Made by a program: the position numbers and the translations under genes | NCBI RefSeq assembly: GCF_006717095.1 | Contig: NZ_VFQE01000001.1 | Span: 1,984,001-2,048,000, forward strand | Length of the DNA stretch: 64,000 bases | Source: Blastococcus colisei | GTDB taxonomy: Bacteria > Actinomycetota > Actinomycetes > Mycobacteriales > Geodermatophilaceae | Reading direction: 5' to 3' | Shown here: piece by piece, positions 45,868 through 62,946 of the stretch | Layout of the letters: every line of letters begins with the position of its first letter | How positions within the stretch are numbered: position 1 is the first letter of the stretch | Notes under the pieces: model-generated | The model's database searches: none | Told to the model about the DNA's origin: nothing | What the model saw: only the letters and a program-made list of their open reading frames with translations

Positions 45868-47057
45868 TTCCGGTGCGGCGGGCGGCGGGCGCGGCGGTCG
45901 TCGGAGGAGTGGTGGTCCTCGCGGTGCTGGGACTCCTGCGCGCCGCCGCGCCTCAGAACTCCCCGTCGATCCCCGAACAGGTCCAGGCCGTGGCGGTCGG
46001 CCTGCGCTGCCCGACCTGCCAGGGCCAGTCGGTCGCCGACAGCGCGTCGGTCCTCGCCGCGAGCTCCCGGCAGGTCATCGAGGACCAGCTGCGGGCAGGC
46101 CGGACCCCGGACCAGATCCGGCAGTACTTCGTCGATCGCTACGGGGAGGAGGTCCTGCTCAGCCCCGACCCGTCCGGCGTCGGGTTGCTGGCCTGGCTGC
46201 TGCCGGCCTTGGCCGTCGCGGCCGGTGGGATCGTCGCCTGGCGCTGGCTGCACCGGCCGCGCAGCGCGCCGGAGAGGACGGCGGGGGATGCCGTGGTGGT
46301 GCCGGCTCGCGAGGCCCTCGCGGCACACCGTGCCGGCGGGCTGGTGCCGGACGGCTCCCCGGCCGGGGAGTCGCTGCGGAAGGCTCTGGACGTCCGGTTG
46401 GCCGCGGAGGAGGACGACTCGGCCGACACCGAGGCGCTGGCCCGGGCCGACCGGCGGCTGGCCGCGGCCTTCGGTCGGTACCGGGCGCGGGAGACGTCCG
46501 CGCGGGTGCGGGATCCCGGCGCGGTGCTGCCGCGACGGGCGGTCACGGCCGGGGCGGCGGTCGTCCTGCTCACGCTTGCGGGAGTGGGCGTGGGTACGGC
46601 GATGGGGAACCGAGGCGCCGGGGATCCGGTCACGGGGGACGTCCCGGTCGCTGCGGAGCCCGCTCCGGGCGTCGCGGCGCTGCGGGCCGAAGCCGAGGCC
46701 CGCCCGCAGGATCCGGCCGCGTGGCTGGCCCTCGGCCGTGCCCTCGACCGCGCGCGGCAGTTCGACCCGGCGGTCGAGGCGTACGACCGGGCACTGGCCC
46801 TGCAGCCGGCGGCCGACGACGTCGCCCTGCTCCGCGGCAACGTGCTGGTCCGGGCGGGCCGGGGCGCCGAGGCGGTGCCGACGATGCGGGAGCTCGCCGG
46901 GCGGTACCCCGACGACCCGGACGTGCTCCTCGTCCTCGGTCTGGCGCAGGAGGCGGCCGGAGCACCGGAGGCGACCGACACCCTGCGTCGCTTCCTCGAG
47001 CTCGCCCCGGACTCCCCGGCGGCCCCCGGGGTCCGGGCGCTGCTGGGGGACGGGTGA
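45864..47057 (+). CDS. ccmH: CcmH-CcmI fusion protein
   Basis: A 397-residue protein. Residues 1-130 are CcmH: signal anchor, the redox motif VGLRCPTCQGQSVADSAS, then QVIEDQLRAGRTPDQIRQYF and a membrane segment (VGLLAWLLPALAVAAGGIVA). Residues 170-240 contain LAAAFGRYRARETSARVRD and a further membrane segment; residues 260-397 are TPR helices (PAAWLALGRALDRARQFDPA, VEAYDRALALQP) as in CcmI, which holds apocytochrome c. In E. coli CcmH has the same kind of fusion. It overlaps both neighbours. Confidence 0.9.
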   Translation: MIPVRRAAGAAVVGGVVVLAVLGLLRAAAPQNSPSIPEQVQAVAVGLRCPTCQGQSVADSASVLAASSRQVIEDQLRAGRTPDQIRQYFVDRYGEEVLLSPDPSGVGLLAWLLPALAVAAGGIVAWRWLHRPRSAPERTAGDAVVVPAREALAAHRAGGLVPDGSPAGESLRKALDVRLAAEEDDSADTEALARADRRLAAAFGRYRARETSARVRDPGAVLPRRAVTAGAAVVLLTLAGVGVGTAMGNRGAGDPVTGDVPVAAEPAPGVAALRAEAEARPQDPAAWLALGRALDRARQFDPAVEAYDRALALQPAADDVALLRGNVLVRAGRGAEAVPTMRELAGRYPDDPDVLLVLGLAQEAAGAPEATDTLRRFLELAPDSPAAPGVRALLGDG

Positions 47058-47779: not shown

Positions 47780-49075
47780 TCAGCCGCGCTGCCGCCTCGC
47801 GTACCAGTAGGCGACCGCGGCCGCGAGGAGCGGTGCGGCCACCAGTGCGACCCGCAGAACCCCCATCACCGACTGCGGGGAGACCACGAGGATCTCCGCG
47901 ACGACGGCGCTCGCCGCCCCGAGGGACAGGACCGTGACCAGGACCGCGACCGCCGTGACGAACGCGACCCGGCCGGGAGCCTCGACCGCCCGCTCGGTCA
48001 CGTCGAGCTCGGCCGCCGGCCGCCGCCGGAAGAGGCGCTCCACCAGGGGGTAGCCCAGGACGGCGACGCCGATGAGGCCCGGCAGCAGGACGCCCCCGAG
48101 CAGCGGATTGGTGATCGTGGTGCCCAGGACGGCGACGTCGACCGCGGGCAGCAGCGCGATCCCGCCCTCGGCGAACAGCAGGTACCAGTCCGGGTACATG
48201 TCATTGCTGGCCGCGCCCGGCACGAACGGGCCGATGTGCTCCACGTCGCCGAAGGGCACCAGCACGGAGGCGAGCACGAGCACCGCGGCCGTGAGGAGGC
48301 CGAGCAGCAGCAGGCGGGATCGCAGCCCCTCGCCACTGGCCGTGGCGACGACCGTCCGGCCGTCCGGCGTCCGCCGCCGCGGCAGCACGGTGTGCCGGTG
48401 ACGGACGACCAGCCACAGGTGGAGGCCGAGCGCGGCCACGAACACCACCGGCAGCACCAGCACGTGCAGCCAGAACAGCCGTGGGACGGCGTCGGAGGCG
48501 TCCGGTCCGCCGAACACGAGGGCGGCCAGCTCCGGGCCCAGCCAGGGGATGCTCGAGGCGATCGTGTGCCCGATCCGGACGCTGCTCCCGGTGACGACGT
48601 CGTAGATCAGGTTCTGCCCGGTCCAGCCGAGCACGATGGCCAGCAGGAGCAGCACCATGCCGAGCAGGTAGTTGGTCGCCCGGCGCCCGCGGAAGGCCCC
48701 GCCGAGGAACACCCGGAGCAAGTGGCCGAGGATCGTCGCGACGAACAGGTAGCTGGCCACCCGGTGCACCCGCCGCAGCAGCTGCCCGCCGGGGACGTCC
48801 TCGCTGATGGTCACCACGGAGGAGAAGGCGGCCGGCAGCTCGCGCCCGGCGTACAACGCCGAGGACCCGTCGTGGACCACCGGTTGCGCGGAGGGCTCGT
48901 AGAAGAACGTCAGGACCACGCCGGTCAGGAGCAGCACCAGGAAGCACACCACCGCGACCGGCCCGAGCAGCATGGACCAGTGCGTGGGGACGACGAGTTC
49001 GCGCAGCCACCGCGGCGCGCCGTTCCGGGCGGTCCGGCCGCCGCCGGAGGTCCGCAGTCGCTCGGCGACGGTCAT
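47780..49075 (-). CDS. qcrB: Cytochrome b of a bc-type complex
   Basis: A 431-residue protein with about nine membrane segments. Two pairs of heme His: RRVHRVASYLFVATILGHLL (14 apart) and FWLHVLVLPVVFVAALGLHL (15 apart). The 14/15 spacing is as in b6f-type and several Gram-positive cytochromes b. The quinone-site PEWY equivalent is MYPDWYLLFAEGG. C-terminal membrane segments follow (VAFVTAVAVLVTVLSLGAAS). It is about 110 residues shorter than mycobacterial QcrB. It is the last gene of the oxidase operon and overlaps the Rieske stop by ATGA. Confidence 0.9.
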   Translation of the reverse strand: MTVAERLRTSGGGRTARNGAPRWLRELVVPTHWSMLLGPVAVVCFLVLLLTGVVLTFFYEPSAQPVVHDGSSALYAGRELPAAFSSVVTISEDVPGGQLLRRVHRVASYLFVATILGHLLRVFLGGAFRGRRATNYLLGMVLLLLAIVLGWTGQNLIYDVVTGSSVRIGHTIASSIPWLGPELAALVFGGPDASDAVPRLFWLHVLVLPVVFVAALGLHLWLVVRHRHTVLPRRRTPDGRTVVATASGEGLRSRLLLLGLLTAAVLVLASVLVPFGDVEHIGPFVPGAASNDMYPDWYLLFAEGGIALLPAVDVAVLGTTITNPLLGGVLLPGLIGVAVLGYPLVERLFRRRPAAELDVTERAVEAPGRVAFVTAVAVLVTVLSLGAASAVVAEILVVSPQSVMGVLRVALVAAPLLAAAVAYWYARRQRG

Positions 49076-49878
49076 CCGCGCACCGGTCCCACGGGCACCG
49101 CGAACCCCCCGGTCGCCACCAGGAACCCGTCCCCGTCCACGCCCAGTGGTAGCTGGGGAAGCGGACGGGATGCCGGGCCGAAGGTCGGCACCGCACCGCG
49201 CGCGGCGTCGAACGTCGCCTGGTGGCAGGGGCAGAACAGCGAGTCGTCGATCTCCTGGTAGAGCCCGACCGGGCAGCCTGCGTGCGTGCAGATCTTCGAG
49301 TAGACGACGATGCGCCGGCCCACCACCCACTCGAGCACGGTCGGGGGCTCGGCGTCACCGGCCAGCCGGACGAGGACGGCGGACGCGGAGTCGGCGCGCT
49401 CGGATCCCTCCGGCCACACCGTGCCGAAGCCACCGACGGGGACCTCGTCGGCCCGGATGCGCTCGCCGTCGGCGGTCACCACGTGGACGCCGCGCCGCCA
49501 CGGGGTCCGGCGGGATTCGTCGCGCCCCAGCCAGGCGAGCAGCCCGATGCCGCCCAGCGCGCCGAGCCCGGCGCCGCCGAGGACCCACCGGCGGCGCACC
49601 GGGTGCCGGGCGACCGCGGCCGCCACCGGCGCGTCCCCGGCCTCGCGCTCGTCGGGCCAGACCAGCTCGGAGATGGTGCGCGGTCGGACCTGGGCGACGA
49701 GGAAGGCGGCGCCGAGCAGGCCGATGCCCAGGAGCGTGCCGATCAGTCCGGTCCGCCACCCCGCGACCAGCCCGACCACGAATGCGGCGAACAGCAGCAC
49801 CGTGGCTCCGGCGACCGCGACCGGCACGGGGCCGCGCAGGCCACTCCGGTCGGGGGCGTCCGGCGCGGCCGCGCTCAC
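49072..49878 (-). CDS. qcrA: Rieske iron-sulfur protein with three membrane segments
   Basis: A 268-residue protein. Membrane segments at about 15-38 (VAVAGATVLLFAAFVVGLVA), 45-62 (GTLLGIGLLGAAFLVAQV) and 98-118 (WVLGGAGLGALGGIGLLAWL) match the three-TM topology of actinobacterial QcrA. The cluster ligands are in YSKICTHAGCPVGLYQE and FCPCHQATFDAARGAV (two Cys-His pairs). It carries electrons from quinol to the cytochrome c subunit. It overlaps both neighbours by four bases. Confidence 0.93.
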   Translation of the reverse strand: MSAAAPDAPDRSGLRGPVPVAVAGATVLLFAAFVVGLVAGWRTGLIGTLLGIGLLGAAFLVAQVRPRTISELVWPDEREAGDAPVAAAVARHPVRRRWVLGGAGLGALGGIGLLAWLGRDESRRTPWRRGVHVVTADGERIRADEVPVGGFGTVWPEGSERADSASAVLVRLAGDAEPPTVLEWVVGRRIVVYSKICTHAGCPVGLYQEIDDSLFCPCHQATFDAARGAVPTFGPASRPLPQLPLGVDGDGFLVATGGFAVPVGPVRG

Positions 49879-50747
49879 GTCCGGGCTCCCGCGTCGTCGT
49901 CCGCTGCCGGGCCCTCGGGGGTCCGCGGGGCGTCCTCGGCCGGGGGCACGCCGGGCGGCGGGACCGCCGGCCGGCGCCTGGTCCGCACGACGAGGACGAG
50001 CGCGCCCACCACGACCAGAGCGAGCACGCCGGTGGCCGCCCCCGCGTACACCCGGCCGATGTCGGTCAGCCCCAGCGGCGTCGGCTCGGCAGCGGCGAGC
50101 TCCTCCACGTAGGCCGCGATGTCCGCGGCCTCCTGGTCGCTGAGCGTCTCGTCCCCGAACTGAGGCATCTCGAAGGGACCGACCCTGATGGCCTCGACGA
50201 TGCCGGTGGGGTCGACGTCCGTGACGTCGGGGGCCAGGGAGCCGTCCGCCGAGATCCCGCCCTGCCCGGCCGCGCTGTGGCAGGGGGCGCAGTTGGTGAG
50301 CCACGGGAGCTGGCCCCGCCCGGGGTCACCGGGGAGGACCTCGGGGATCTCGCCCTCGAGGTCGAACGCATCGGTCATCCACGCGACCACCGCGCGCCGC
50401 TCGTCCGCGGTCAACTGCTCCTCGATCGCGCCCACCTCCGGGTGCACGATCGGCATCCGCCCGGTCCGGATCGTGAGGTCCACGTACGCCACCGGCAGGC
50501 CGCGCAGGTCCGGTCCGGCGGCGGCCCCGGTTCCGGGGACGCCGCTGCCGTCGTTGGCGTGGCACAGCCCGCAGTACCGCAGGTACAGCGACGCGCCCGC
50601 TGCGACGTCCACTCGCGCCGGCTCGGGCGCCGGGGCCGCGTCGGCCGGCTGCACGAGGAGGGTCAGCCCCACGCACCCTGCGACGAGCGCGAGGAGGGGG
50701 AGCAGCGTCCCGCCGCGCCGCTGTCTCCGTCGGTCGGGCGAGGTCAC
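49875..50747 (-). CDS. qcrC: Diheme cytochrome c subunit (QcrC-like)
   Basis: A 290-residue protein: N-terminal signal or anchor (LLPLLALVAGCVGLTLLVQP), heme 1 at YLRYCGLCHANDGSG, heme 2 at TNCAPCHSAAGQGG with MPQFGDETLSDQEAADIAAY as its Met region, one C-terminal membrane segment (VYAGAATGVLALVVVGALVL) and an acidic Pro-rich tail. Two c hemes and a tail anchor are the layout of actinobacterial QcrC, which wires the bc complex directly to the oxidase. Confidence 0.9.
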   Translation of the reverse strand: MTSPDRRRQRRGGTLLPLLALVAGCVGLTLLVQPADAAPAPEPARVDVAAGASLYLRYCGLCHANDGSGVPGTGAAAGPDLRGLPVAYVDLTIRTGRMPIVHPEVGAIEEQLTADERRAVVAWMTDAFDLEGEIPEVLPGDPGRGQLPWLTNCAPCHSAAGQGGISADGSLAPDVTDVDPTGIVEAIRVGPFEMPQFGDETLSDQEAADIAAYVEELAAAEPTPLGLTDIGRVYAGAATGVLALVVVGALVLVVRTRRRPAVPPPGVPPAEDAPRTPEGPAADDDAGART

Positions 50748-51142
50748 GGACGCTCCAGCGTGTAGAGGTAGGCGACGATGTCGTCGACGTCCTCGTCGGT
50801 CACGCCGACGTCGGGCATGAGGGTGCCGGGGTTGATCTCCTGCGGGTCCTGGATCCACCGGGCGAGGTCGTCCGGGGTATTGGGCAGCATCCCGGCGATG
50901 GTGCGGCGGTCGGCGATGCCGGCCAGCGGGGGGCCGACGCTGCCCTGCGGGCCGGCGACCCCAGGGACCTGGTGACAGGCCAGGCAGCCGTACTCGCGCA
51001 GCAGCTCCTGCCCCGCCTGAGGTGCGCCGGGAGGTTCCCCGGTGTCCTCGACGAGGCTGCTGCAGCCGCCCAGGACGACGATGCCGAACACCAGGCCTGC
51101 CGCCGTCGGCGCGCCGGCCCACCATCGCCCGGTCACCAGCAC
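50744..51142 (-). CDS. Monoheme cytochrome c lipoprotein
   Basis: A 132-residue protein with a lipobox (VVLGGC, Cys about residue 27) and one c heme (YGCLACHQVPGVAGPQG); the Met ligand is probably in NPGTLMPDVGVTDEDVDDIV. It could shuttle electrons on the outside of the membrane between the bc complex and the caa3 oxidase. The start is GTG at 51142; a second GTG two codons later is possible. It overlaps the next gene by GTGA. Confidence 0.88.
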   Translation of the reverse strand: MLVTGRWWAGAPTAAGLVFGIVVLGGCSSLVEDTGEPPGAPQAGQELLREYGCLACHQVPGVAGPQGSVGPPLAGIADRRTIAGMLPNTPDDLARWIQDPQEINPGTLMPDVGVTDEDVDDIVAYLYTLERP

Positions 51143-51149
51143 GCTCCTC

Positions 51150-51635
51150 TCACCAGCACGGTCCGATCGCCAGCACCGGAACGATCCCCAGCCCGACCAT
51201 GCCCAGCGACAGGAGGTTCATGTACAGGCCGCCGGTGACGAGGAAGCGGTTGCGCGCCGTGTCCGGCACGGCGTCCCATGCCCGGGCCGGGTACTCCTGC
51301 GCCTGCTCCCGCAGCACCCGGCGCCGCTCGCTCGTCGGCCACAGCGGCGGCCGTGGCGCGGTCGGGGCGTCCACCTCGCCGGTCCTGGGATCGGGCAGCC
51401 GGCGCAGCGTCCACCACGCCGCGTAGCAGGCGGCGGCGACGACGGCCGTGAGGAGCACCGTCAGGATCACGAGGAACACCGGCAGCCCGAGGCCGTCGGT
51501 CGGGCAGCTGGCCTCGATCGTCCAGTAGCCGGCCAGCAGGTGCAGCAGCCAGGCGGCGGTGCCACCGGTCACCGCGAACCAGAAGATGATCGGCCGGACG
51601 CCCGGCCGCTTCGTCTCCGGGGTCGCCGCCGTCAC
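51150..51635 (-). CDS. Membrane protein of the oxidase operon, unknown function
   Basis: A 161-residue protein with three or four membrane segments (IIFWFAVTGGTAAWLLHLLA, LPVFLVILTVLLTAVVAAAC and, near the C-terminus, FLVTGGLYMNLLSLGMVGL). A soluble loop contains the strand ERRRVLREQAQEYPARAWDA. Position after subunit III suggests an accessory or assembly role. Its GTG overlaps the subunit III stop by GTGA and it ends 7 bp before the cytochrome c gene. I do not recognise the family. Confidence 0.75.
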   Translation of the reverse strand: MTAATPETKRPGVRPIIFWFAVTGGTAAWLLHLLAGYWTIEASCPTDGLGLPVFLVILTVLLTAVVAAACYAAWWTLRRLPDPRTGEVDAPTAPRPPLWPTSERRRVLREQAQEYPARAWDAVPDTARNRFLVTGGLYMNLLSLGMVGLGIVPVLAIGPCW

Positions 51636-52240
51636 CAGAACCTCGGCGTGAGGTAGAGGGTGAAGGCGATCACCAGCCAGGAACCCACGACGAAGTACCA
51701 GTAGTAGGCCACGGTCACCGCCATCTGCTGGTCGCGCGGCTGCATCCGATCCCCGCGCACCTTCAGGGCGACGACGGCGAACCCGATGAGGACGAGAACG
51801 GCGTTGATGTGGTGGAACCCGGCGAGGGCCAGGACCAGCGAGCCGTAGACGTCCCGCTGCGGATCGATGCCGTTGGCCGGATAGTCGGCCAGCTGGATGG
51901 CCAGGAACGCCGCGCCGATGACCAGTGCGACGGCCAGCGCGGCGGGCAGTCGCCCCCCGGCGCGCCCGGATCGGGCCGCGACGTGGACGACCGCGGCCGG
52001 CACCACGCTGAGGACCAGCAACCCTGTGGCGATCCCGGTCCGCCACAGGACCGGGTCCTCGGCCGGCGGCGGCGGCCAGGTCGAGGCACCGGTCCGCAGG
52101 TAGTAGTAGGAGAAGAGCAGCGCGGCCAGCATCGAGATCAGCACCCAGAGGGTCAGCTGCATCCCCCACCAGCCGGAGTCCCGCGCGATGGCCGGGGCGG
52201 GCCGGGGCGCCGGGTCGCCGGCGTACCCGCTGGTCCTCAC
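51632..52240 (-). CDS. ctaE: Cytochrome c oxidase subunit III
   Basis: A 202-residue protein with five membrane segments: WWGMQLTLWVLISMLAALLF, GIATGLLVLSVVPAAVVHVA, LAVALVIGAAFLAIQLADYP, YGSLVLALAGFHHINAVLVL and VAYYWYFVVGSWLVIAFTLY. The length is at the short end for COX III (five- rather than seven-segment form), as in many bacterial caa3 enzymes. FHHINAVLVLIGF carries the conserved His. It overlaps ctaD by GTGA. Confidence 0.9.
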   Translation of the reverse strand: MRTSGYAGDPAPRPAPAIARDSGWWGMQLTLWVLISMLAALLFSYYYLRTGASTWPPPPAEDPVLWRTGIATGLLVLSVVPAAVVHVAARSGRAGGRLPAALAVALVIGAAFLAIQLADYPANGIDPQRDVYGSLVLALAGFHHINAVLVLIGFAVVALKVRGDRMQPRDQQMAVTVAYYWYFVVGSWLVIAFTLYLTPRFW

Positions 52241-54141
52241 GAGCCGTCCTCCCTGCTCCAGGTCCACGCGATCCCGACGCACACCGAGCCGAGGAGGCCC
52301 GCCAGCGAGAGCGGGTAGACCGAGACGAGCACGCCACCCAGGGCCAGCACGAGGAAGGCAGCCATCAGCAGCGGCCACCAGGACTGCTTCGGCAGCGTGA
52401 CGACTTCCTCGGGCGCCGCGTCGAGCAGGCTGGTGAGCACGGTCTGCCGCACCTGGCCCGGGGGCTCGAGCAGTTCCTCCTGCCACGTCGACGGGTCGTA
52501 CCGCGGCTGGAACGGCTGGGTGTCCCACAGCGGGGAGCGGCCGGCCACCTCCGGGATGGCCCGGAAGTTGTAAGCCGGCGGCGGCGAGCTCACCCACCAG
52601 TCGAGGGTCTCGCCGCCCCAGGGGTCGTCGCCGGCCCCCTCGCCGTACCGCGCGCTGGAGATGACGTTGCCGAGCGTCACCAGGAGGCCGGTCGTGAGCA
52701 CGATGCTGCCGATCGTGGACAGTGCCTGCGTCGGTTCCCAGCCGGTGTTCTCCGCGTAGGTGTAGACCCGTCGCGGCATGCCCTGCAGTCCGGTGATGTG
52801 CAGCGGGAAGAAGGTGAGGTTGAACCCGACGAAGGTGAGCCAGAAGCTGAGCTTGCCGGAGCGTTCGGACAGCAGACGGCCGGTGATCTTGGGAAACCAG
52901 AAGTACAACCCGGCCAGCACCGGGAAGAGCATCCCGCCGATGAGGACGTAGTGGAAGTGCGCGACCACGAAGTAGGTGTCGTGCGCCTGCTGGTCGAACG
53001 GCACGGAGGCCACCATCACGCCGGTGACGCCGCCGGCCACGAAGATGACGACGAAGCCCACGACGTAGAGCAACGGCGTCTTCCAGACAACGCGTCCCTG
53101 CCACAGGGTGGCGATCCACGCCGAGATCTGGATCGCGCTCGGGATGGGGATGAAGAGGCTGGCCAGGGAGAAGAACGCGAGCCCGAGCTGCGGCAGGCCG
53201 GTGGTGAACATGTGGTGCACCCAGACGCCGAAACCGAGGATGCCGATCGCGACGGTCGACACGGCGATCAGGCTGTAGCCGACGATCCGGGTGCGGGCGA
53301 GGACCGGCACGATCGTGGAGACGATGCCCAGCCCGGGCAGCAGGATGATGTAGACCTCGGGATGCCCGAAGAACCAGAACAGGTGCTGCCACAGCAACGC
53401 GTCGCCACCGGTGGCGGGGTCGTAGAAGTGCGTTCCGACCGTGCGGTCCAGTTCCAGCAGCACGCTGGCCACGACCAGCGGCGGGAACGCGAAGATGATC
53501 GACACCCCGGTGACCAGGACGTTCCAGGCCAGCAGCGGCATCCGGCTGATCTTCATGCCGGGGGCCCGGTTGCGGAGGATGAGGACCACCAGCTCGATGG
53601 CTCCGCCGATGGTCGCGATCTCGACGAACGTGACGCCGAGCAGCCAGAAGTCGATCGACGAGCTGGGGGAGTACTCCCCGTTGGTCAGCGGGACGTAGGA
53701 GAACCAGCCACCGTCCGGGACCTCGCCGAAGAAGAAGCTGGCGTAGAGGAAGATTCCGCCCAGGACGTAGATGTAGTAGCCGAACGCCGTCAACCGGGGA
53801 AAGGGCAGGTCGCGGGTGCCCAGCATCAGCGGCAGGACGTACATCGCGAACGCCTCGCCGACGGGCACGGCGAAGAGGAACATCATCGTCGTGCCGTGCA
53901 TGGTGAACAGCTCGTTGTAGGTCTGCGCGTCGAGGAACGTGCTCTCCGCGCTGCCGAGCTGCCAGCGCATGAACAGCGACTGGATGCCGCCGAGGGCGAA
54001 GAAGACGAACGCGGTGATGAGGAACCGCTGGGCGACCTGCTTGTGGTTGAGCGCGGTCAGGGACCCGGCCAGCCCACGGGGGGTGGCCCAGGCCTCGGCC
54101 AGCGGGTCCTCGGTGCCCGGTCGGTCCCGCAGCAGCGTCAT
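52237..54141 (-). CDS. ctaD: Cytochrome c oxidase subunit I, with C-terminal two-TM extension
   Basis: A 634-residue heme-copper oxidase subunit I. Heme a ligands: FTMHGTTMMFLFAVP and VAHFHYVLIGG. CuB: FGHPEVYIILLPGLG (the His-Tyr crosslink type, family A) and VWVHHMFTTGLP. The region YNFRAIPEVAGRSPLW is the usual end; the protein then continues through a soluble linker to two more membrane segments (WWPLLMAAFLVLALGGVLVS, YPLSLAGLLGSVCVGIAWTW), which look like a fused subunit IV. The ATG overlaps the ctaC stop. Confidence 0.94.
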   Translation of the reverse strand: MTLLRDRPGTEDPLAEAWATPRGLAGSLTALNHKQVAQRFLITAFVFFALGGIQSLFMRWQLGSAESTFLDAQTYNELFTMHGTTMMFLFAVPVGEAFAMYVLPLMLGTRDLPFPRLTAFGYYIYVLGGIFLYASFFFGEVPDGGWFSYVPLTNGEYSPSSSIDFWLLGVTFVEIATIGGAIELVVLILRNRAPGMKISRMPLLAWNVLVTGVSIIFAFPPLVVASVLLELDRTVGTHFYDPATGGDALLWQHLFWFFGHPEVYIILLPGLGIVSTIVPVLARTRIVGYSLIAVSTVAIGILGFGVWVHHMFTTGLPQLGLAFFSLASLFIPIPSAIQISAWIATLWQGRVVWKTPLLYVVGFVVIFVAGGVTGVMVASVPFDQQAHDTYFVVAHFHYVLIGGMLFPVLAGLYFWFPKITGRLLSERSGKLSFWLTFVGFNLTFFPLHITGLQGMPRRVYTYAENTGWEPTQALSTIGSIVLTTGLLVTLGNVISSARYGEGAGDDPWGGETLDWWVSSPPPAYNFRAIPEVAGRSPLWDTQPFQPRYDPSTWQEELLEPPGQVRQTVLTSLLDAAPEEVVTLPKQSWWPLLMAAFLVLALGGVLVSVYPLSLAGLLGSVCVGIAWTWSREDGS

Positions 54142-55103
54142 TCCAGGCTCTCCAGGTAGACGAGGAGCGCCTGCAGGTCGTCGCCGCCGAGGTTGTTCGG
54201 CGGCATGCGCACCCCCGGCTTGAGACCTTGCGGGTCGAGGATCCAGCCGGCCAGGTTGCCGCGGTTGTTCTCGAGCATCCCGGCGGCGATCGTGTCGCGC
54301 GAGGCGAGGTGGGTGAGGTCTGGGGCCGGGGCCATACCCCCCTCGCTGACGTCCTCGATGCGATGGCAGTCGCCGCAGGAGGCGGACAGGAACACGTCCC
54401 GGCCGGCTCGCTCCGGGTCGGTGTCCGGCGTTCCCGAGGACAGCTGCAGAGTGCGCAGGTGCTCCTCGAACTCCTCCTCCGGCTGCGCCACCAGCACGAA
54501 CTGCATGCGCGCGTGCTGGATGCCGCAGAACTCGGCGCACTCGCCGAGGTAGGTGCCGGGTTCGTCGACCTGGAAGGTCATCGTGTTCTCCCGGCCCGGC
54601 ACGAGATCGACCTTGCCGGAGACGGGAGGCACCCAGAGGCTGTGGATGACGTCCGCGGAGTTCAGCTGCAACTGGACGGGGCGTCCGACGGGGACGTGCA
54701 CCTCGTTGGCGGTGACCACGCCGCTGTCGGGGTAGCGGACCTCCCACCAGAACTGGTAGCCGACGACCTCGATGTCCAGGGCCTCGGGAGGTGCGGGCCG
54801 GGAGACCCCTATCCCCACCACGAGGCTGTAGGCGAACACCGCGGGCAGGACGAGCATGGGGATGACCACGCCCCACACCGCGATGAAGGCCTTGGCGCCC
54901 CGGGTGTTGCGCTGAGGTGCCCGGCGTGCACGGTGCCGCAGCGCGAGGACGAGGAACACCACCGTGGCCAGCCACAGCAGGCCCCCGAGCGCGATCATGA
55001 ACCAGGTGAGGCCCGCGATCGACGCGGCGTCGGGGCCCACGGGATCGAGCACCGAGCCCGGTGCCGGCGCCGCCACCGGCAGGGCTTCGGTGTACAAGAT
55101 CAC
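54138..55103 (-). CDS. ctaC: Cytochrome c oxidase subunit II with fused cytochrome c (caa3 type)
   Basis: A 321-residue protein: two membrane segments (ASIAGLTWFMIALGGLLWLA and FIAVWGVVIPMLVLPAVFAY), a CuA domain (QFWWEVRYPDSGVVTANEVH, ADVIHSLWVPPVSGKVDLVP, GECAEFCGIQHARMQFVL, with both Cys, both His and Met present) and a C-terminal cytochrome c (SASCGDCHRIEDVSEGG; Met in GVRMPPNNLGG). The fusion defines a caa3 oxidase. It is the first gene of an eight-gene operon on the minus strand. The GTG start at 55103 is tentative. Confidence 0.93.
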   Translation of the reverse strand: MILYTEALPVAAPAPGSVLDPVGPDAASIAGLTWFMIALGGLLWLATVVFLVLALRHRARRAPQRNTRGAKAFIAVWGVVIPMLVLPAVFAYSLVVGIGVSRPAPPEALDIEVVGYQFWWEVRYPDSGVVTANEVHVPVGRPVQLQLNSADVIHSLWVPPVSGKVDLVPGRENTMTFQVDEPGTYLGECAEFCGIQHARMQFVLVAQPEEEFEEHLRTLQLSSGTPDTDPERAGRDVFLSASCGDCHRIEDVSEGGMAPAPDLTHLASRDTIAAGMLENNRGNLAGWILDPQGLKPGVRMPPNNLGGDDLQALLVYLESLE

Positions 55104-55295
55104 GTACCCCCTGTCGTGGCGGTGCGCGGGGCGGCCGGGTGGGCCGTCCCCCGTACCGTTGCGACCCTAACGACCCTGCTCCACAACCGCAGGCGACGGA
55201 CTCGTGCGAGCGGACCGGCCTGCGGCGGGGGTCGCCGCGCACGACACTCGGACGATGGACAGGGTGCCCGACGAGACCATCGCCGGAGGACGCAG

Positions 55296-56210
55296 GTGAC
55301 CGGGGACAGGGCGACGGGCAGCGTTCTCGCCCACGTGGGCGGGGCGGCGCAGGACTGGCCGGTCCTGCCGCTGGCGTTCCTCGCGCTGGTCGCCCTCGGC
55401 TATCCGTGCCTGCTCGCCTGGACGGCGCCGCGCCGGCGGTCGCCCTGGACGACGGTCGGGCCGGGCGTGGCATGGGTCTTCGGCATCGTCGCGCTCGCTG
55501 CCGCGCTGGCCTCGCCCATCGAGCGGCTCGGCGAGGACTACCTCCTCGCCCACATGGTCCAGCACCTGCTCCTCACGCTCGTGGCCGCACCGCTGCTCGT
55601 GCTCGCCGATCCGGTGCCCCGGATCATCGCGGCCCTGCCCGAGCCGGTCCGACCGGTCGTCGCCCGCCCGTGGGCGCGGCTCGTGCGGGGGGCCCGCCGA
55701 CCCGCGGTCGTCCTGGTCGTCGCGGTCCTCTACCTGGCCGTCGTCCTGGCCTGGCACCTGCCGGCCGCGTACGAGGCCGCCCTCCTGTCGACGCCGGTGC
55801 ACATCGTGGAGCACCTCACCTTCCTGGCGGCCGCCCTGGTCTTCTGGTGGAACGTGCTCCGCGTTCCGCGCCGGCGCCTGGGGCAGCTGGTGGCCGGACT
55901 GGTCGCCGTGCTGATCCCGGCGTTGGGTGAGGCGGTGCTCGGCGGCGCCATGCTGTTCTCGACGACGCCCTGGTACGACGTCTACGTCGGAGCGGCCGCC
56001 GAGCACGGCTTCGATCCGGTGGTCGACCAGCAGGTGGCCGGTGCGCTCATGTGGATGGCCGGTATGCCGGTCTACCTGCTGGCCGCCGTCGTCCTGCTGT
56101 GGCGGGTGGTCCGTGTCGGCGACACGGAACGGCAGCCGCCGGTCCCCCATGTGCCGGATGCCCCGGAACGCGTGGTCCCGGAAGCCCGGCGGGCCTCGCT
56201 GGAGGCGTGA
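55296..56210 (+). CDS. ctaG: CtaG/caa3-type oxidase assembly protein
   Basis: A 304-residue protein with about seven membrane segments: VLPLAFLALVALGYPCLLAW, AWVFGIVALAAALASPIERL, YLLAHMVQHLLLTLVAAPLL, VLVVAVLYLAVVLAWHLPAA and VYLLAAVVLLWRVV. HMVQHLLL and HIVEHLTFLAAALVFWWNVL are the conserved His pairs of the caa3_CtaG family, needed for copper loading of the oxidase. It is divergent from the oxidase operon (192 bp between starts). The GTG at 55296 has GGAGGACG upstream. Confidence 0.9.
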   Translation: MTGDRATGSVLAHVGGAAQDWPVLPLAFLALVALGYPCLLAWTAPRRRSPWTTVGPGVAWVFGIVALAAALASPIERLGEDYLLAHMVQHLLLTLVAAPLLVLADPVPRIIAALPEPVRPVVARPWARLVRGARRPAVVLVVAVLYLAVVLAWHLPAAYEAALLSTPVHIVEHLTFLAAALVFWWNVLRVPRRRLGQLVAGLVAVLIPALGEAVLGGAMLFSTTPWYDVYVGAAAEHGFDPVVDQQVAGALMWMAGMPVYLLAAVVLLWRVVRVGDTERQPPVPHVPDAPERVVPEARRASLEA

Positions 56211-57230: not shown

Positions 57231-58001
57231 TCAGTCGAACAGCGGGTCTCCGGTGATGCGGCCGAGGGAGGCGGCCAGGGTTCGCGCGGCGACGACCACG
57301 TCCCGGGCCTCCGGCCAGTGCACGACCGGCACCCGCGCCCGGTCGGCCGCCCCCACGGCGTCGCTCCAGGGGATCGCCCCGGTGAAGGTGAGGTCGTGCC
57401 GAGCGCAGAACTCCTCGACGGCGTCTAGGTCGCCGGGGGAGCGGAGCTTGTTGGCCACCACCGCGACCGTCGGTACCGGGAGCTCGGCCACGAGGGCGCT
57501 CATCCGCCGGACCGTCTCCAGCGAGCGGTAATACGGCTCGGCGACCAGCAGCACCGCGTCGACGTGCCGGATGGTGCCCCGGCTGAGGTGCTCCGGGGAG
57601 GCCTCCATGTCCACGACGACCAGCAGTCCCGGGTCGCCGAGGTCCTCCAGCACGGAGGAGACCACGGCGTGGGCGGCGCACAGGCAGCCCTCGTCGGCGT
57701 GCGCAGCAGCGCCCATCGCGAGCAGCCGGATGCCGTCCGGCCCGGCCACCGCGTACCGGTCCAGCACCTCGTCGACCGGCTCGAGCAGTCCGGCGCCGCC
57801 CCGCCGCCGGGACACGAGCGACGGCGGGACAGGGGGCGGCGGAGCGGTTGCCGAGGGCAGCCCGAGAGCGGTGGCCAGGTTGGGATTGGCGTCGGCGTCG
57901 ACGGCCACGACGCGCCGACCCCCTCGGGCGGCGAGAAGCGCCACGGTGGCCGACAGCGTGGTCTTGCCCGCCCCGCCCTTGCCCGCGACGGCCAGCCTCA
58001 C
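57231..58001 (-). CDS. CooC-like nickel-insertion ATPase
   Basis: A 256-residue MinD/ParA-superfamily ATPase. It begins VRLAVAGKGGAGKTTLSATV, the deviant Walker A of CooC/NifH/MinD, with VVAVDADANPNLATALGLP and VVVDMEASPEHLSRGTIRHV. A C-x-C motif (EGCLCAAHAVVSSVLEDLG, Cys 106 and 108) matches the nickel-binding pair of CooC from CO dehydrogenase maturation. No nickel CO dehydrogenase gene is present; a [NiFe] hydrogenase operon lies directly upstream and divergent. A role in nickel delivery to that enzyme is my inference. It overlaps the padR stop by GTGA. Confidence 0.85.
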   Translation of the reverse strand: MRLAVAGKGGAGKTTLSATVALLAARGGRRVVAVDADANPNLATALGLPSATAPPPPVPPSLVSRRRGGAGLLEPVDEVLDRYAVAGPDGIRLLAMGAAAHADEGCLCAAHAVVSSVLEDLGDPGLLVVVDMEASPEHLSRGTIRHVDAVLLVAEPYYRSLETVRRMSALVAELPVPTVAVVANKLRSPGDLDAVEEFCARHDLTFTGAIPWSDAVGAADRARVPVVHWPEARDVVVAARTLAASLGRITGDPLFD

Positions 58002-58375
58002 GTCCGCGCCTGGCTGGCGTCGAGGGCCAGTGCCTCGTAGCGCCTGCGGTAGACGTCGAGGCTGCGCGCGAACTCGGCCAGCGATCCGGCGACCGCGTGC
58101 AGCCACTCGCGGCCCTCGTCGGTCAACTCGTACGTCCGCCGGGCCGGTCCGGTCGTCGACGGCTGCCAGGTGGAGCGCACGAGTCCTTCCTCGTCCATGG
58201 CTCGCAGGCTGCGGTACAGCCCGCCGGGATCCACCCGGTCCAGGCCGAGGGCGGCCACCTGCTCCAGCAACTCGTACCCGTGGGACGTGCCCTCCGCCAG
58301 CAGGAGGAGCAGGCAGGGACGGAGGTAGTTGCGGGGGAGCCCGACGGCAACCTCCTCGGGCGGCGTCCGGGTCAC
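57998..58375 (-). CDS. PadR-family regulator
   Basis: A 125-residue PadR-type winged helix: LRPCLLLLLAEGTSHGYELL, GLYRSLRAMDEEGLVRSTW, RRTYELTDEGREWLHAVAGS, then a C-terminal helix for dimerisation. The GTG start is set by the GTGA overlap with the previous stop, and its own stop overlaps the CooC-like gene in the same way. The likely target is the divergent promoter region at 58759-58862. Confidence 0.88.
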   Translation of the reverse strand: MTRTPPEEVAVGLPRNYLRPCLLLLLAEGTSHGYELLEQVAALGLDRVDPGGLYRSLRAMDEEGLVRSTWQPSTTGPARRTYELTDEGREWLHAVAGSLAEFARSLDVYRRRYEALALDASQART

Positions 58376-58758
58376 GAGTTCCCGCCGAGCGGACGCTCGG
58401 CGGCGCAGGCCAGCGCCTCCTCCACGGAGTTGTGGCACCAGCAGTCGGCGCTGCATTCGCCGTGCGAGGGACGGGTCAGGTCGGAGAAGCTCAAGGCGAA
58501 CTCCGTGCGACCCTCCGCCATCCCGGTTGCGGAGAGGGCGTAGCCGGTGGCGACGCGTTCGAGGAAGCCGTCGACGACCAGTTGGTCCAGGTACGCGAGC
58601 CCGACGCGGGCCTCGACTCCCAGGAAGCGCTCGAGCAGCGGCGCGTCGACGACGTCGCCGAGGCCTTCCCCGCGCAGCCAGAACATGACCTGGAGGATCT
58701 CGCTGCGCCAGTAGAGGCTGCGCAGCGCCTCCGACTTGGGCGGGTGCAATTCATCCAC
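58372..58758 (-). CDS. Cys-rich winged-helix-like protein divergent from the hydrogenase
   Basis: A 128-residue protein. Residues 10-80 look like a winged helix (SEILQVMFWLRGEGLGDVVD, LAYLDQLVVDGFLERV, GYALSATGMAEGR). The C-terminus carries GECSADCWCHNSVEEALACA with Cys 102, 106, 108 and 118 and His 109, a possible metal or Fe-S site. I do not recognise a named family. As first gene of the padR-cooC-like operon and next to a hydrogenase it could be a redox- or metal-sensing regulator or a maturation factor. GTG start at 58758. Confidence 0.7.
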   Translation of the reverse strand: MDELHPPKSEALRSLYWRSEILQVMFWLRGEGLGDVVDAPLLERFLGVEARVGLAYLDQLVVDGFLERVATGYALSATGMAEGRTEFALSFSDLTRPSHGECSADCWCHNSVEEALACAAERPLGGNS

Positions 58759-58788
58759 GTCAGCGTCTCCGAGCCGTGACCGAGGTGT

Positions 58789-58832
58789 GATGCACGCTAC
58801 ACCGGGCCGGCCGGCTAGCTGTACGGTGCATC
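58789..58832. promoter_or_regulatory. GATGCAC/GTGCATC inverted repeat in the divergent hydrogenase promoter
   Basis: GATGCAC (58789-58795) and GTGCATC (58826-58832) are perfect 7-bp inverted repeats 30 bp apart, inside the 104-bp gap between the divergent starts at 58758 and 58863. The spacing (37 bp centre to centre) is about three and a half helix turns. A candidate operator for the PadR or the Cys-rich protein. Confidence 0.4.
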
Positions 58833-58862
58833 TACCGGCGTCCTCTCCCCCGGGAGCATGGC

Positions 58863-60224
58863 ATGGAAGATCGACAGACCAGATCGCCGAAGCTGCAGGC
58901 CCGCACCCCGGCTCAGGAGCTGCTCGACGCGCTCGGTCCGGTGGAGCGTTTCCACGACAAGGAGGAGGTCGGTGCCTTCGGCCTGCCCTCCGGCGCGGTC
59001 ACCGAGGACATGCTCTCTTCGGTGGCCGACGCCAGGCACCCGAAGCGGTTCGGTCCGCTGGAGAAGCTGCACGTGTTCTGGTTCGCGGGCATGAGCTGCG
59101 ACGGCTGCAGCGTCGCAGTCACGGGTGCGACGACTCCGTCCATCGAGAGCCTGCTGCTGACGGCGCATCCAGGGCTGCCTCGAGTGGTCCTCCACCACCC
59201 GGTGCTCAACATGGAATCGGGCCCGCACTACGTGCGTGCCGCGGAAGAGGCGATCGCCGGCACGCTGAACGCGCCCTACGCCGTCGTGCTGGAAGGTTCC
59301 ATCTCGGACGAGCTGGCCGCCTATGCCTCCGGTGGCTACTGGGCCGGCCAGGGGGAGGAGCCGTGGGGGCCGGACGGCGAGATGCGGCCCGTGACCGCGT
59401 CCGAGTGGGTCGCGCGGCTGGCGCCCAATGCGGCGGCGATGATGGCCATCGGGACGTGCGCCACGTGGGGCGGCGTCCCGTCGGCCGAGGGCAACCCCAC
59501 CGGCGCGATGAGCCTGATGGACTGGCTGGGCAAGGACTACCGCTCCACCTTCGGCGTCCCGGTGGTCAACGTCCCCGGCTGCCCGCCCATCGGTGACAAC
59601 TTCACCGAGACCGTCGCCGCGATCCTGTACTTCCTGCAGGGCTTCGGCCCCCTGCCGGAGTTCGACGAGCTGGGCCGGCCGGCGTGGCTGTTCGGCGAGA
59701 CGGTGCACCGCAACTGCGTGCGCGGCGCGTACTACGAGGAGGGCGACTTCGCCGAGGAGTTCGGTGACCCCGAGTGCCTCGTCGAGGTCGGCTGCTGGGG
59801 GCCGGTGGTCAACTGCAACATCACCTCGCGCGGCATGATCAACCACGTCGGGGGCTGCATGAACGCCGGTGGGCCGTGCATCGGCTGCACGATGCCCGGC
59901 TTCCCCGACAAGTTCACCCCCTTCTACAAGCGGCCGCCCGGTTCGTTCGCCTCCACCACGGTCTCCCGGATGGTGGGCAGCGTCATCCGGCCGCTGCGCA
60001 AGTTCAGCAACAACAACCTCAACCGCGAGGTGCGCTGGGACCGGCAAGGTGCGACGCCCAGCGGATTCGGCCGGGAGATGGCCGAGCCGTCGGTCCTGGC
60101 CCAGGTGAACCACAAGTTCTACGACATGCTGCGCCGCTCGGGTGACCGGGGGAAGGCGAAGGCCGAGGTGTGGGGCAGGCGCGACGAAGCACCCAGCGGC
60201 GGCAGCCCCGACCCGCGGGTCTGA
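58863..60224 (+). CDS. [NiFe] hydrogenase small subunit
   Basis: A 453-residue electron-transfer subunit. Residues 1-70 are an extra N-terminal part without a Tat signal; then VFWFAGMSCDGCSVAVTGAT (Cys 79 and 82), AIGTCATWGG, VNVPGCPPIGDNFTETVAA, HRNCVRGAYYEEGDF, VEVGCWGPVVNCN and VGGCMNAGGPCIGCTMPGFP give the ligands of three Fe-S clusters. The C-terminal 80 residues are soluble, with no membrane anchor. Lack of a Tat signal suggests a cytoplasm-facing enzyme, as in groups 1h and 2a. The CDGC motif differs from the CDGD that I recall for group 1h. GGGAG precedes the ATG. Confidence 0.93.
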   Translation: MEDRQTRSPKLQARTPAQELLDALGPVERFHDKEEVGAFGLPSGAVTEDMLSSVADARHPKRFGPLEKLHVFWFAGMSCDGCSVAVTGATTPSIESLLLTAHPGLPRVVLHHPVLNMESGPHYVRAAEEAIAGTLNAPYAVVLEGSISDELAAYASGGYWAGQGEEPWGPDGEMRPVTASEWVARLAPNAAAMMAIGTCATWGGVPSAEGNPTGAMSLMDWLGKDYRSTFGVPVVNVPGCPPIGDNFTETVAAILYFLQGFGPLPEFDELGRPAWLFGETVHRNCVRGAYYEEGDFAEEFGDPECLVEVGCWGPVVNCNITSRGMINHVGGCMNAGGPCIGCTMPGFPDKFTPFYKRPPGSFASTTVSRMVGSVIRPLRKFSNNNLNREVRWDRQGATPSGFGREMAEPSVLAQVNHKFYDMLRRSGDRGKAKAEVWGRRDEAPSGGSPDPRV

Positions 60225-60257: not shown

Positions 60258-62159
60258 ATGTGCTTCAAGACCCTGCCCGTCGAGTTCGACGAGCGCGGGC
60301 GGGCCACCCTGCGCGGCGGCATCCCCAATCCGTACGACGTCACGGTGACCAAGCCGGATGTGGGCCTGACCGAGGAGGAGCGCACCGCCCGCATCGAGCG
60401 CCTGGTGGCCCGCAACGGGCACATCAAGGACCTGAACATGGACCCGGTCACCCGCGTGGCCGGCGCCCTGGCGGTGCACGTGACCGCCGACCTCCAGAAC
60501 GGCGCGTATCTCGACTCACACGCCGTGGCGACGCTGTTCCGGGGATACGAGGTCATCCTCATGGGACGTGATCCGCGGGACGCCATCTTCGTGGCCTCCC
60601 GCGCCTGCGGGGTGTGCGGTGGTGTGCACTCGCATGCCGCCGCGTACGCCATCGAGTCCGCCATGGGCATCACGCCGCCGCCGCTGGGGACGGTGGTGCG
60701 CAACATGGTCGAGGCGGCCGAGATGGGATACGACAATCCGCTGCACCTGTACCTGCTCGCCGGGCCCGACTACTCGGAGTCGGTCGTCAAGACGACCAAT
60801 CCGGAACTGTGGACGAAGGCCGAGGGGTGGAAGTGCCCCAGCGCGGACATCCACGGCTTCTCGACCATGGCCGAGCTCATGGAGGCACTCAACCCGCTGA
60901 CCGGCAAGCTCTATCGGGAGGGACTGGAGTTCACCCGGCTCTCGCGCGAGATGGTGGTGCTCCTGGCCGGCAAGTACCCGCATCCGGAGAACGTCGTGCC
61001 CGGTGGTGTCTCGACCACCCTGACCCTGCAGACGCTCAACGAGTACCACTCGCGGCTGGGCAAGATCTACGACTACGCCCGGCGGATGATCGCGGTGTGG
61101 GACGACATCCCCACGTTCTTCTACGAGGCCGACGACCGCTACCAGCTGACCGGTTACCGGCCGACCAGCCAGATCGATCCCGGCTACTGGGACGACCCGT
61201 ACGCCTACGACGCCACGTACGCCAACTGCAACGACTGGGGCGAGAAGCGCTGGTCGACACCGGGCGTGGTGATCGACGGCGAACTCGTGACCACCCGGCT
61301 CACCGACATCAACATCGGCTGGGAGGAGTTCGTCGAGCACTCCTTCTACGAGGAGTCCTCGACCTCCCGCTTCCCCACCGACCCGCTGGGCAACCCGCTG
61401 TCGCCCTACCACCCCTGGAACAAGCGGACCCTGCCCAAGCCCGGCGCCAAGAACTGGAAGGACAAGTACACCTGGGCCTGCACCCCCCGGTGGGATCGCC
61501 AGGTCGTCGAGGCCGGTGCGTACTCGCGGCTCCTCATGACCGCCAAGGCGCAGAAGATGCCGGAGAGCCAGTTCATGTCGGCCAGCGGCTCGGGCATGCG
61601 GTTCGTGATCCCCAGGGGGACGACCGCGGAGAGCGAGGTCGAGTGGCACGTGCCGGAGAAGTGGAACGCCTTCGAGCGCAACCGCGGCCGCGCCTACCAC
61701 TACCTGTTCAGCCAGTTGGTCGGTCTCGAGAGCCTGCTGCAGGCCTACGAGATGCAGCGGCAGGGCGAACGCCGGGTCGCCGCCCTCGACCCGCAGGAGC
61801 TGGAGAAGGCCATCCCCAAGGACGAGCGGATCAGCGTGGGCTGGTGGGGCGCCGGCCGCGGGTGGCTCACGCACCACCTGGTCATGGACAAGGGGAAGAT
61901 CACCAACTACCAGATCTGCACGCCGTCGACGATCAACGCCTCACCGCGCGACCCCTGGGATCAACCCGGCCCGTACGAGGAGGCCGTGATGAACACGCCC
62001 ATCCTCGAGAAGATGTCCGATCCGTCGGACTTCACCAGCATCGACATGCTGCGGGCCATCCGTAGCTTCGACCCGTGCATGCCGTGCACCACACACGTCC
62101 ACACCGGTGCCGGTGAGGTCGTGCGCGAGGTCAACACCTGCTCCTGCGGTGGTGACTGA
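60258..62159 (+). CDS. [NiFe] hydrogenase large (catalytic) subunit
   Basis: A 633-residue nickel subunit that splits H2. Motif L1 is ASRACGVCGGVHSHAAAYAI (Cys 117 and 120); L2 is RSFDPCMPCTTH (Cys 607 and 610). The chain continues 20 residues after His 613 (VHTGAGEVVREV, then NTCSCGGD), to be removed by a protease; the tail itself ends with a Cys-x-Cys. NMDPVTRVAGALAVHVTADL is the N-terminal conserved Glu/Arg region (Asp here). L1 resembles group 2a/1-type aerobic uptake enzymes. The ATG is 33 bp after the small-subunit stop, with GAGGAGACG. Confidence 0.95.
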   Translation: MCFKTLPVEFDERGRATLRGGIPNPYDVTVTKPDVGLTEEERTARIERLVARNGHIKDLNMDPVTRVAGALAVHVTADLQNGAYLDSHAVATLFRGYEVILMGRDPRDAIFVASRACGVCGGVHSHAAAYAIESAMGITPPPLGTVVRNMVEAAEMGYDNPLHLYLLAGPDYSESVVKTTNPELWTKAEGWKCPSADIHGFSTMAELMEALNPLTGKLYREGLEFTRLSREMVVLLAGKYPHPENVVPGGVSTTLTLQTLNEYHSRLGKIYDYARRMIAVWDDIPTFFYEADDRYQLTGYRPTSQIDPGYWDDPYAYDATYANCNDWGEKRWSTPGVVIDGELVTTRLTDINIGWEEFVEHSFYEESSTSRFPTDPLGNPLSPYHPWNKRTLPKPGAKNWKDKYTWACTPRWDRQVVEAGAYSRLLMTAKAQKMPESQFMSASGSGMRFVIPRGTTAESEVEWHVPEKWNAFERNRGRAYHYLFSQLVGLESLLQAYEMQRQGERRVAALDPQELEKAIPKDERISVGWWGAGRGWLTHHLVMDKGKITNYQICTPSTINASPRDPWDQPGPYEEAVMNTPILEKMSDPSDFTSIDMLRAIRSFDPCMPCTTHVHTGAGEVVREVNTCSCGGD

Positions 62160-62163
62160 CGGC

Positions 62164-62946
62164 ATGGCGACTCACGGGCATGGGATGCCCGTGACCGTCC
62201 TCGTCGGTGGGGTGAGCGAGCTGTTCCAGCGCGACCTCGACCTCGGCCGGCTGGCCGTCGAGCGGCTCCTCGGCGAAGGCCTCGGCTCCGGCGTCCTCGT
62301 CGAGGACCTGTACTACGGGGCGGTGGCTGTCGCGCAGCGGTTGGAGGACCTGCGCCCCGACCTGCTCGTGCTCGTCTCGGCGGTCCGGCGCGGACGGAGG
62401 CCCGGGACGGTCGAGCGCCGGCGGATCGATCCGCCGCGGCTGACACCGGAGAAGGTGCAGGCGGCGGTCGGGGACGCGGTCGTCGGCTACGTCCACGTGG
62501 ACCTCGTCGTCGAGGTCGCCGTCGGGCTGGGGGCGCTGCCGGCGCGGACGGTGACGGTGGAGGTGGAGCCCGACGAGGTCGGGCCGGGGGAGGGGTTGAG
62601 CCCGTCGGCCGCCGCCGCATTCGACGACGCTCTGGCGATCGTGCGGGCCGAGGTGCGCCGAGCCCCCTTGCTCGAACTCGCCGGCGAGCTGCGCACGCTC
62701 CTCGAGGGGGATCGGCTCGGGGACTCGGCCGCGCTGCGCGCAGTTCGCGCGCTGCTGGACGAGCTGGTGCGCCTCGACCGGGACGCCCGCTGGGGTGCCA
62801 CGTTCCGGTTGCGGGACGAGCTCCGGCTCCGGATCGCGGCGGGCGCGGGCAGCGACGGGATGGACCACCGCGACTGGGGCCTGTGGTGGGCGCTCGTCGA
62901 GGAACTCGACCGCTTGACGGCGCTGGAGGCAGTGCGCACGCCGTGA
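62164..62946 (+). CDS. Hydrogenase maturation protease-like protein (HupD/HycI family)
   Basis: A 260-residue protein. Residues 1-165 have the HupD/HycI fold: VTVLVGGVSELFQRDLDLGR (a degenerate version of G-x-G-N-x4-D-D-x2-G), LRPDLLVLVSAVRRGRRPGT, then GYVHVDLVVEVAVGLGALPA, with the His expected for nickel sensing, and VGPGEGLSPSAAAAFDDALA. The usual first Glu/Asn region reads SEL. Residues 170-260 are an added helical domain (LLELAGELRTLLEGDRLGDS). It starts five bases after the large-subunit stop and should remove its 20-residue tail. Confidence 0.85.
   Translation: MATHGHGMPVTVLVGGVSELFQRDLDLGRLAVERLLGEGLGSGVLVEDLYYGAVAVAQRLEDLRPDLLVLVSAVRRGRRPGTVERRRIDPPRLTPEKVQAAVGDAVVGYVHVDLVVEVAVGLGALPARTVTVEVEPDEVGPGEGLSPSAAAAFDDALAIVRAEVRRAPLLELAGELRTLLEGDRLGDSAALRAVRALLDELVRLDRDARWGATFRLRDELRLRIAAGAGSDGMDHRDWGLWWALVEELDRLTALEAVRTP

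Follow-up and report, generated by a model that had tools for sequence, protein, structure and literature searches.

A probable hydrogenase-dedicated unit of two regulators and a CooC-like ATPase in Blastococcus colisei, with predicted selenocysteine in its paralog CooC3

HypA and HypB are the standard nickel route into [NiFe]-hydrogenases. A different type of metal-linked ATPase, CooC, is known from operons of nickel carbon monoxide dehydrogenase (CODH) (PMC6006190, PMC13056359), and according to the parts of PMC6006190 used here, residues C112 and C114 of C. hydrogenoformans CooC1 bind metal at an interface, whereas the CooC of R. rubrum does not bind nickel. Gene clusters of group 1m hydrogenases are already described as including a CooC-type ATPase in the group 1m section of PMC9561532. 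Here we analyzed a stretch of 64,000 nucleotides from Blastococcus colisei (contig NZ_VFQE01000001.1, positions 1,984,001 to 2,048,000; hereafter the window), in which three genes, cysP, padR and cooC1, face away from the two subunit genes of a [NiFe]-hydrogenase. We consider it probable that this trio belongs, as its regulator and metallochaperone part, to a maturation system dedicated to the hydrogenase, which is group 1m-like, and predict that nickel is the most likely metal of the unit.

All three genes lie on the reverse strand, and their layout agreed with that of an earlier first-pass annotation of this DNA, which had described them as joined by overlaps and divergent from the hydrogenase. 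The gene cooC1 (57231-58001) encodes a CooC-like MinD-family ATPase of 256 amino acids with Cys at positions 106, 108 and 199, of which the first two form a C106-x-C108 motif; padR (57998-58375) encodes a PadR-family regulator of 125 amino acids; and cysP (58372-58758, GTG start) encodes a likely winged-helix protein of 128 amino acids from no known family. The overlap sequence is GTGA at both the cysP/padR and the padR/cooC1 junction. Between cysP and hhmS, the small-subunit gene that starts at 58863 on the forward strand, lies a divergent intergenic region of 104 bp (58759-58862, no strand assigned) as the promoter region for the trio and the hydrogenase. The four Cys residues pointed out in the first-pass annotation as a possible metal site of CysP (102, 106, 108 and 118) were invariant in 36 aligned sequences.

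The trio is strongly tied to this hydrogenase, as the first-pass annotation had suggested, and the co-occurrence that it proposed to check was found. A scan of species genomes with cooC1 as the query gave 44 loci, a set chosen by cooC1 itself, in which cysP and padR were present in 44 and a hydrogenase subunit in 40 (genomes and loci are given by our identifiers, G and L, where needed). The order cysP-padR-cooC1 on one strand was kept in 40 of the 44 loci (L020, L023, L026 and L049 deviate), and of the 39 loci holding both the trio and the small-subunit gene, 37 had them in divergent orientation. The loci without a hydrogenase were L013, L017 and L035, which lie at contig ends or on a short contig, and L050. 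In a survey of 396 genomes drawn from the phylum, with hhmL, the large-subunit gene, counted at 53% identity or more, cysP was found in 19, hhmL in 20 and both in 17 (Fisher p 7e-25); the two cases of cysP without hhmL (G017, G354) were each near a contig edge, and in the three of hhmL without cysP (G221, G309, G163) hhmL was broken. No cysP was found in 32 genomes having only a 37-43% identical hydrogenase, which is probably of group 1h. Of 22 genomes picked for cysP or hhmL, 18 had CooC-like genes, versus none of 10 controls, while all 43 further genomes with such genes had been chosen by cooC1 and are positive by construction. The trio and more cooC genes were also seen in L050 and L196, which belong to one genome (G439), with no hydrogenase in those stretches.

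The ATPase carries the Walker A sequence GKGGAGKTT, of the deviant GKGGxGKT type of CooC, and gave general MinD/ParA/ArsA-type matches in Pfam. Its nearest solved relative was C. hydrogenoformans CooC1 (3kje: E 9.6e-24 by sequence, 3.6e-39 by profile), which was also the top structural match in the PDB of its AlphaFold model (pLDDT 89.6; E 5.1e-14, TM 0.73), with MinD/NifH-type folds among the close structural neighbours and FleN matching as well. C106-L-C108 was aligned with Q-C-Y-C of 3kje, that is, with its C112/C114 pair, so that the earlier recognition of a CooC-type Walker A and of a Cys-x-Cys like the CooC nickel site was borne out. This CxC was invariant in 25 aligned cooC1 orthologs, and in 8 further cooC1 genes the codon of its first Cys was UGA. 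A plasmid search with cooC1 gave two weak matches. We call the protein CooC-like rather than CooC because the CODH family (PF03063, CODH/Hcp) gave no match in the B. colisei genome or in any of the 65 genomes with the system, in agreement with the first-pass statement that no nickel CODH is present and with its proposed check for cooS; the same family model matched in 5 of 14 named control genomes. The protein thus shares with CooC of nickel CODH the MinD-type ATPase fold, the deviant Walker A and the aligned CxC, but differs in having as many as four paralogs, linked to a hydrogenase, in genomes lacking CODH, in the predicted selenocysteine (Sec) at one or both CxC positions of CooC3 and at the first Cys of some CooC1, and in a paralog, CooC4, without CxC.

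Both hydrogenase subunits, hhmS (58863-60224, forward strand) and hhmL (60258-62159, forward strand), were confidently named by Pfam and are adjacent with 33 bp between them (60224/60258). The B. colisei genome gave one hydrogenase match at E<=1e-5. Beside hhmL an open reading frame of uncertain start codon is conserved (62107-62946, forward strand); its match to the hydrogenase maturation protease family TIGR00072 is weak, at 32.6 bits against a cut-off of 47.45. Past the window end the cluster (L051) continues with a HycI-type protease, a NifU-domain protein, a HypC-like protein, CooC-like ATPases, a tetratricopeptide repeat (TPR) protein 80% identical to that of a relative, a biotin protein ligase (BPL)-like protein whose match is weak (E 0.008, below the Pfam cut-off), and two small proteins of 88 and 94 amino acids with one hydrophobic segment each. 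The label group 1m-like was chosen by gene content, the genes compared below matching the published group 1m cluster. The cluster as given in the group 1m section of PMC9561532 shares with ours adjacent small- and large-subunit genes, a peptidase, an Fe-S assembly protein, a CooC-type ATPase, a TPR protein, a BirA/BPL-like protein, two one-helix small proteins and 5aa5 as best model, HofG (5aa5) being the closest solved chain for hhmL. On the other hand, that section names one CooC-type ATPase where several paralogs are found here, and mentions neither the cysP-padR pair nor loss of HypAB nor selenocysteine. In the parts of PMC9561532 used here, group 1l is defined by five short transmembrane genes that separate the two subunit genes. 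This identity was rejected for our enzyme, whose subunit genes have no transmembrane gene between them and whose cluster matches group 1m in gene set.

Neither HypA (PF01155) nor HypB (TIGR00073) was found in the B. colisei genome, whose stated completeness is 100, whereas control genomes gave matches. Among genomes with the system HypA was present in 13 of 50, versus 21 of the 22 controls, which have a related enzyme (p 3e-8), and HypB was over the cut-off in 9 of 49, versus 17 of 22 controls; G205 and G417 are apparently one genome, so that the latter count entered the Fisher test as 9 of 48. HypB matches of 28-75 bits, below the cut-off, were left uncounted and are read as putative UreG-like proteins. 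Probes for HypA and HypB also gave no match in 66 hydrogenase-cluster stretches, while known copies were recovered. The first-pass suggestion that the unit replaces HypAB therefore holds for B. colisei and most relatives, but not for the relatives that keep HypA or HypB. In five of the HypA-positive genomes (G399, G407, G381, G205, G140) hypA or hypB lies beside a second, related hydrogenase, and in G163 a small-subunit fragment was found. HypD was present in 39 of the 50 system genomes. A gene for a DUF6390 protein lies at L051:15501-16262 and also occurs in L011, L014, L048, L049 and L169; none of these six stretches holds HypD, which is absent from all five of their genomes that the search covered (those of L011, L014, L049, L051 and L169), and the DUF6390 protein is a possible substitute for HypD in assembly of the Fe ligands.

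Three further CooC paralogs, cooC2, cooC3 and cooC4, lie past the window end in the same cluster (G000:C1:2052841-2055094). Of these, cooC3 (L051:13593-14339 = C1:2053593-2054339, reverse strand; 5.6 kb beyond the window) carries a TAG in frame at the CxC, in the context GCP-TAG-CG, where homologs have Cys, giving a C-x-U-C motif with a third Cys. The recoded codon was TAG in the Geodermatophilaceae relatives L122, L123, L125 and L131 and TGA in others, and ten genes had TGA at both Cys positions of the motif. After removal of duplicates, cooC3 was Sec-type in 28 genes and Cys-type in 8, cooC1 was Sec-type, with TGA for the first Cys, in 8 and Cys-type in 52, and all 19 cooC2 genes were Cys-type. 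The 36 recoded genes contain 46 in-frame stops, every one of them on the CxC (230 codons checked), and on this count decay or a frameshift was rejected as the origin of the cooC3 stop. A tree was built from 154 CooC-like sequences, of which two or three were present twice. In it cooC3 formed a single clade (0.997), for which parsimony gave five changes between Sec and Cys, whereas cooC1 and cooC2 were not cleanly split and cooC4 was not one clade. We predict that cooC3 encodes a selenoprotein. Standard gene calling splits it at the in-frame UGA or UAG, and it is easily missed.

After the recoded codon, a hairpin core GAGC-AGTT-GCTC was present in 28 of 28 Sec-type cooC3 genes and in 2 of 8 Cys-type genes (one with the full stem); it uses TTG, a rare Leu codon that accounts for 36 of the 618 Leu codons in the rest of these genes. 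Across 27 distinct Sec-type rows 97.4% of the cells of the 7-bp stem were paired (slid controls: 46.6% at most; Cys-type cooC3: 62.5%). Paired cells and the covariation score were above shuffles (0 of 500 reached them); changes on both sides occurred at two pairs, a count not above shuffles (159 of 500 reached it). Folding energy alone separated Sec-type from Cys-type poorly, the separation lying in the conserved hairpin sequence, and in cooC1 the mean folding energy did not differ (−16.9 versus −16.2 kcal/mol); no hairpin common to the Sec-type cooC1 genes emerged. The B. colisei genome, the only one checked for it, has a tRNA-Sec with anticodon CUA (RF01852, 66.4 bits), and its formate dehydrogenase (FDH) gene reads TAG in frame at the Sec site (codon L052:3233; downstream open reading frame 3344-5962, forward strand). 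Pyrrolysine, suggested by the ARAGORN label 'tRNA-Pyl', was rejected on the RF01852 score and the FDH TAG at the Sec site.

The CobW family has been linked to metallochaperones. A selenoprotein named after this family of metal-linked GTPases is described in the part of PMC13188914 used here, but it belongs to a different family (NF041053) and has the motif UxxC; Table 1 of that source covers 119 families by the source's own count, and no CooC, MinD or ParA ATPase is named in the parts used here. Use of UAG for Sec in Geodermatophilaceae is known from PMC5330540, which in the parts used here resembles our case in the tRNA-Sec anticodon CUA, in UAG Sec sites and in a hairpin after the codon; the selenoproteins named there are FDH, UGSC-motif and AhpC proteins, with no CooC-like ATPase. 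A CooC selenoprotein was likewise not among the open-licence literature matches listed, by which its absence from print is not established.

Regarding the regulators, PadR was well over the cut-off of Pfam PF03551 (68.3 versus 27 bits), while cysP matched no sequence family in Pfam or NCBIfam and sequence searches gave it no identity. Its model (pLDDT 81, low in the Cys tail) is a winged helix, for which Foldseek returned winged helices of MarR, MntR and IdeR (best E 4e-3, none at E<=0.001), and we regard this fold as likely. Many CysP relatives have a His-rich C-terminal tail, and a second, diverged cysP was found at L029:7770-8444 and L030:8475-8909, followed by padR, HypC and HypD.

A palindrome, in its strict form [AG]TGTA-N3-TACA[CT], was counted 21 times in the upstream regions of 44 cysP genes, which total 17.6 kb, with sites in 18 of 42 loci, against a single site in 551 kb elsewhere (L032, near hhmS); 21 of 22 copies thus lay within 400 bp upstream of cysP. 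When the spacing was loosened, 18 of 44 upstream regions had the palindrome, versus 0.14% of letter shuffles. The B. colisei promoter region has two degenerate copies of this conserved operator-like motif, GTGTAGCGTGCAT (58790-58802, reverse strand) and CTGTACGGTGCAT (58819-58831, forward strand), and the relaxed form, defined after these sites had been seen, gave exactly two matches on both strands of the 64-kb window, both inside the 104-bp region. The same form gave 2, 1, 1 and 0 matches in the related loci L007, L008, L010 and L018; the sites of L007 and L008 were just upstream of cysP, and that of L010 about 0.9 kb upstream, adjoining hhmS. The palindrome marks the promoter common to the trio and the hydrogenase, as a putative operator.

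In the mechanism that we propose, CooC1, CooC2 and CooC3 would act as dimers, with a metal (most likely nickel) bound between their two CxC motifs and delivered to the large-subunit precursor at the expense of ATP, which is the job of HypA and HypB. Selenocysteine in CooC3 may change how tightly the metal is held or the redox state in which it is held. PadR, CysP or both would bind the palindromes and switch the trio and the hydrogenase together, and metal or redox state would be sensed at the Cys4 site of CysP. We infer nickel as the cargo, ATP-driven loading, a benefit of selenium and what CysP senses. The first-pass idea of a nickel-delivery and sensing unit dedicated to the hydrogenase is thus supported by the linkage, the lack of CODH and the frequent absence of HypAB, with nickel itself inferred. 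The presumed job would be that of HypA and HypB, NTP-driven nickel loading of the large subunit, but B. colisei has neither gene, with a CooC/MinD-type ATPase in place of HypB and no match to HypA. We lean slightly towards a wider claim, that aerobic actinobacteria load nickel into an atmospheric-type [NiFe]-hydrogenase through up to four CooC-like ATPases instead of HypA and HypB, and that those whose CxC carries Sec once or twice (C-x-U, U-x-C or U-x-U; UAG in Geodermatophilaceae, UGA elsewhere) form a new selenoprotein family using selenium for metal delivery rather than redox catalysis. If so, nickel insertion would have a second solution, in a hydrogenase lineage mostly without HypA and HypB, the use of selenocysteine would be widened to metal holding and handover, and soil actinobacteria would have a concrete reason to keep selenium metabolism.

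Several observations weigh against the proposed maturation role. HypA is present in 13 of the 50 system genomes; in G405, G406, G412 and G414 no second hydrogenase was found within 17-20 kb around hypA or hypB, for which reason we hold the reading slightly less firmly, and in G216, G309 and G269 these genes lie on contigs under 5 kb. The absences depend on family models and, in many relatives, on incomplete assemblies. Family search found no HypD in B. colisei or in 10 of the 49 other genomes; the enzyme may thus be immature, or the Hyp pathway altered as a whole, and a dedicated maturation system does not account for this absence in B. colisei. In L050 the trio stands in 16.7 kb that contain no hydrogenase, and no cysP was found in the 3.1 kb upstream of hhmS in G221. 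The strict palindrome is absent from the window, where only the relaxed form matches, and CooC4 has no CxC. Since R. rubrum CooC does not bind nickel, a CooC-like ATPase may also be a folding chaperone.

Among other explanations, the one with most weight, though still unlikely in our judgement, is that the CooC-like ATPases mature the hydrogenase without carrying nickel, by inserting Fe-S clusters, helping to assemble the Fe(CN)2CO unit or acting as redox chaperones of the NifH/NUBP kind. The NifU-domain gene of the cluster, the MinD/NifH-type neighbours of the CooC1 model, the third Cys in the C-x-U-C of CooC3 and the lack of CxC in CooC4 would fit such a role, as would an unusual ligand assembly, given the absence of HypD from B. 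colisei and ten others. However, C. hydrogenoformans CooC1 was the best match in both sequence and structure, the recoded positions coincide with its metal pair, and it is the nickel inserters HypA and HypB that are most often missing, whereas HypD is mostly kept (39/50).

FleN-type ATPases modulate FleQ, and on that model the trio could be mainly a metal- or redox-responsive regulatory unit, in which CooC1 modulates both regulators and nickel is inserted with no dedicated ATPase. Two DNA-binding-type proteins in one operon with the ATPase, the operator-like palindrome in the promoter and FleN among the structural matches speak for this, but three more CooC paralogs stand in the cluster away from the regulators, and the CxC with its Sec variants points to metal chemistry; we judge it improbable. 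That CooC1 serves a nickel CODH or another nickel enzyme elsewhere, its position near the hydrogenase being incidental, would agree with the known CooC proteins of CODH operons (PMC6006190, PMC13056359, in the parts used here). This is very improbable, being largely refuted for CODH by the 0 of 65 result for PF03063 and opposed by the linkage counts (40 of 44 loci with the hydrogenase, 17 shared genomes of 396). Equally hard to credit is that the cooC3 stops are decay or assembly errors and not selenocysteine. Those stops are seen at the gene level, tRNA-Sec was checked in B. colisei only, and the folding energies of Sec-type and Cys-type cooC1 are alike; but no stop fell off the CxC, homologs have Cys, the hairpin core with compensatory pairs is in every Sec-type cooC3, and B. 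colisei has a matching tRNA-Sec and FDH TAG.

System I cytochrome c maturation is unusual for actinobacteria, and genes for its CcmF and CcmH were found at 43280-47057 of the window, on the forward strand. Near the hydrogenase, at 47780-56210, are genes for cytochrome b, a Rieske protein, cytochrome c, COX1/COX2 and CtaG, which are a possible electron outlet for H2.

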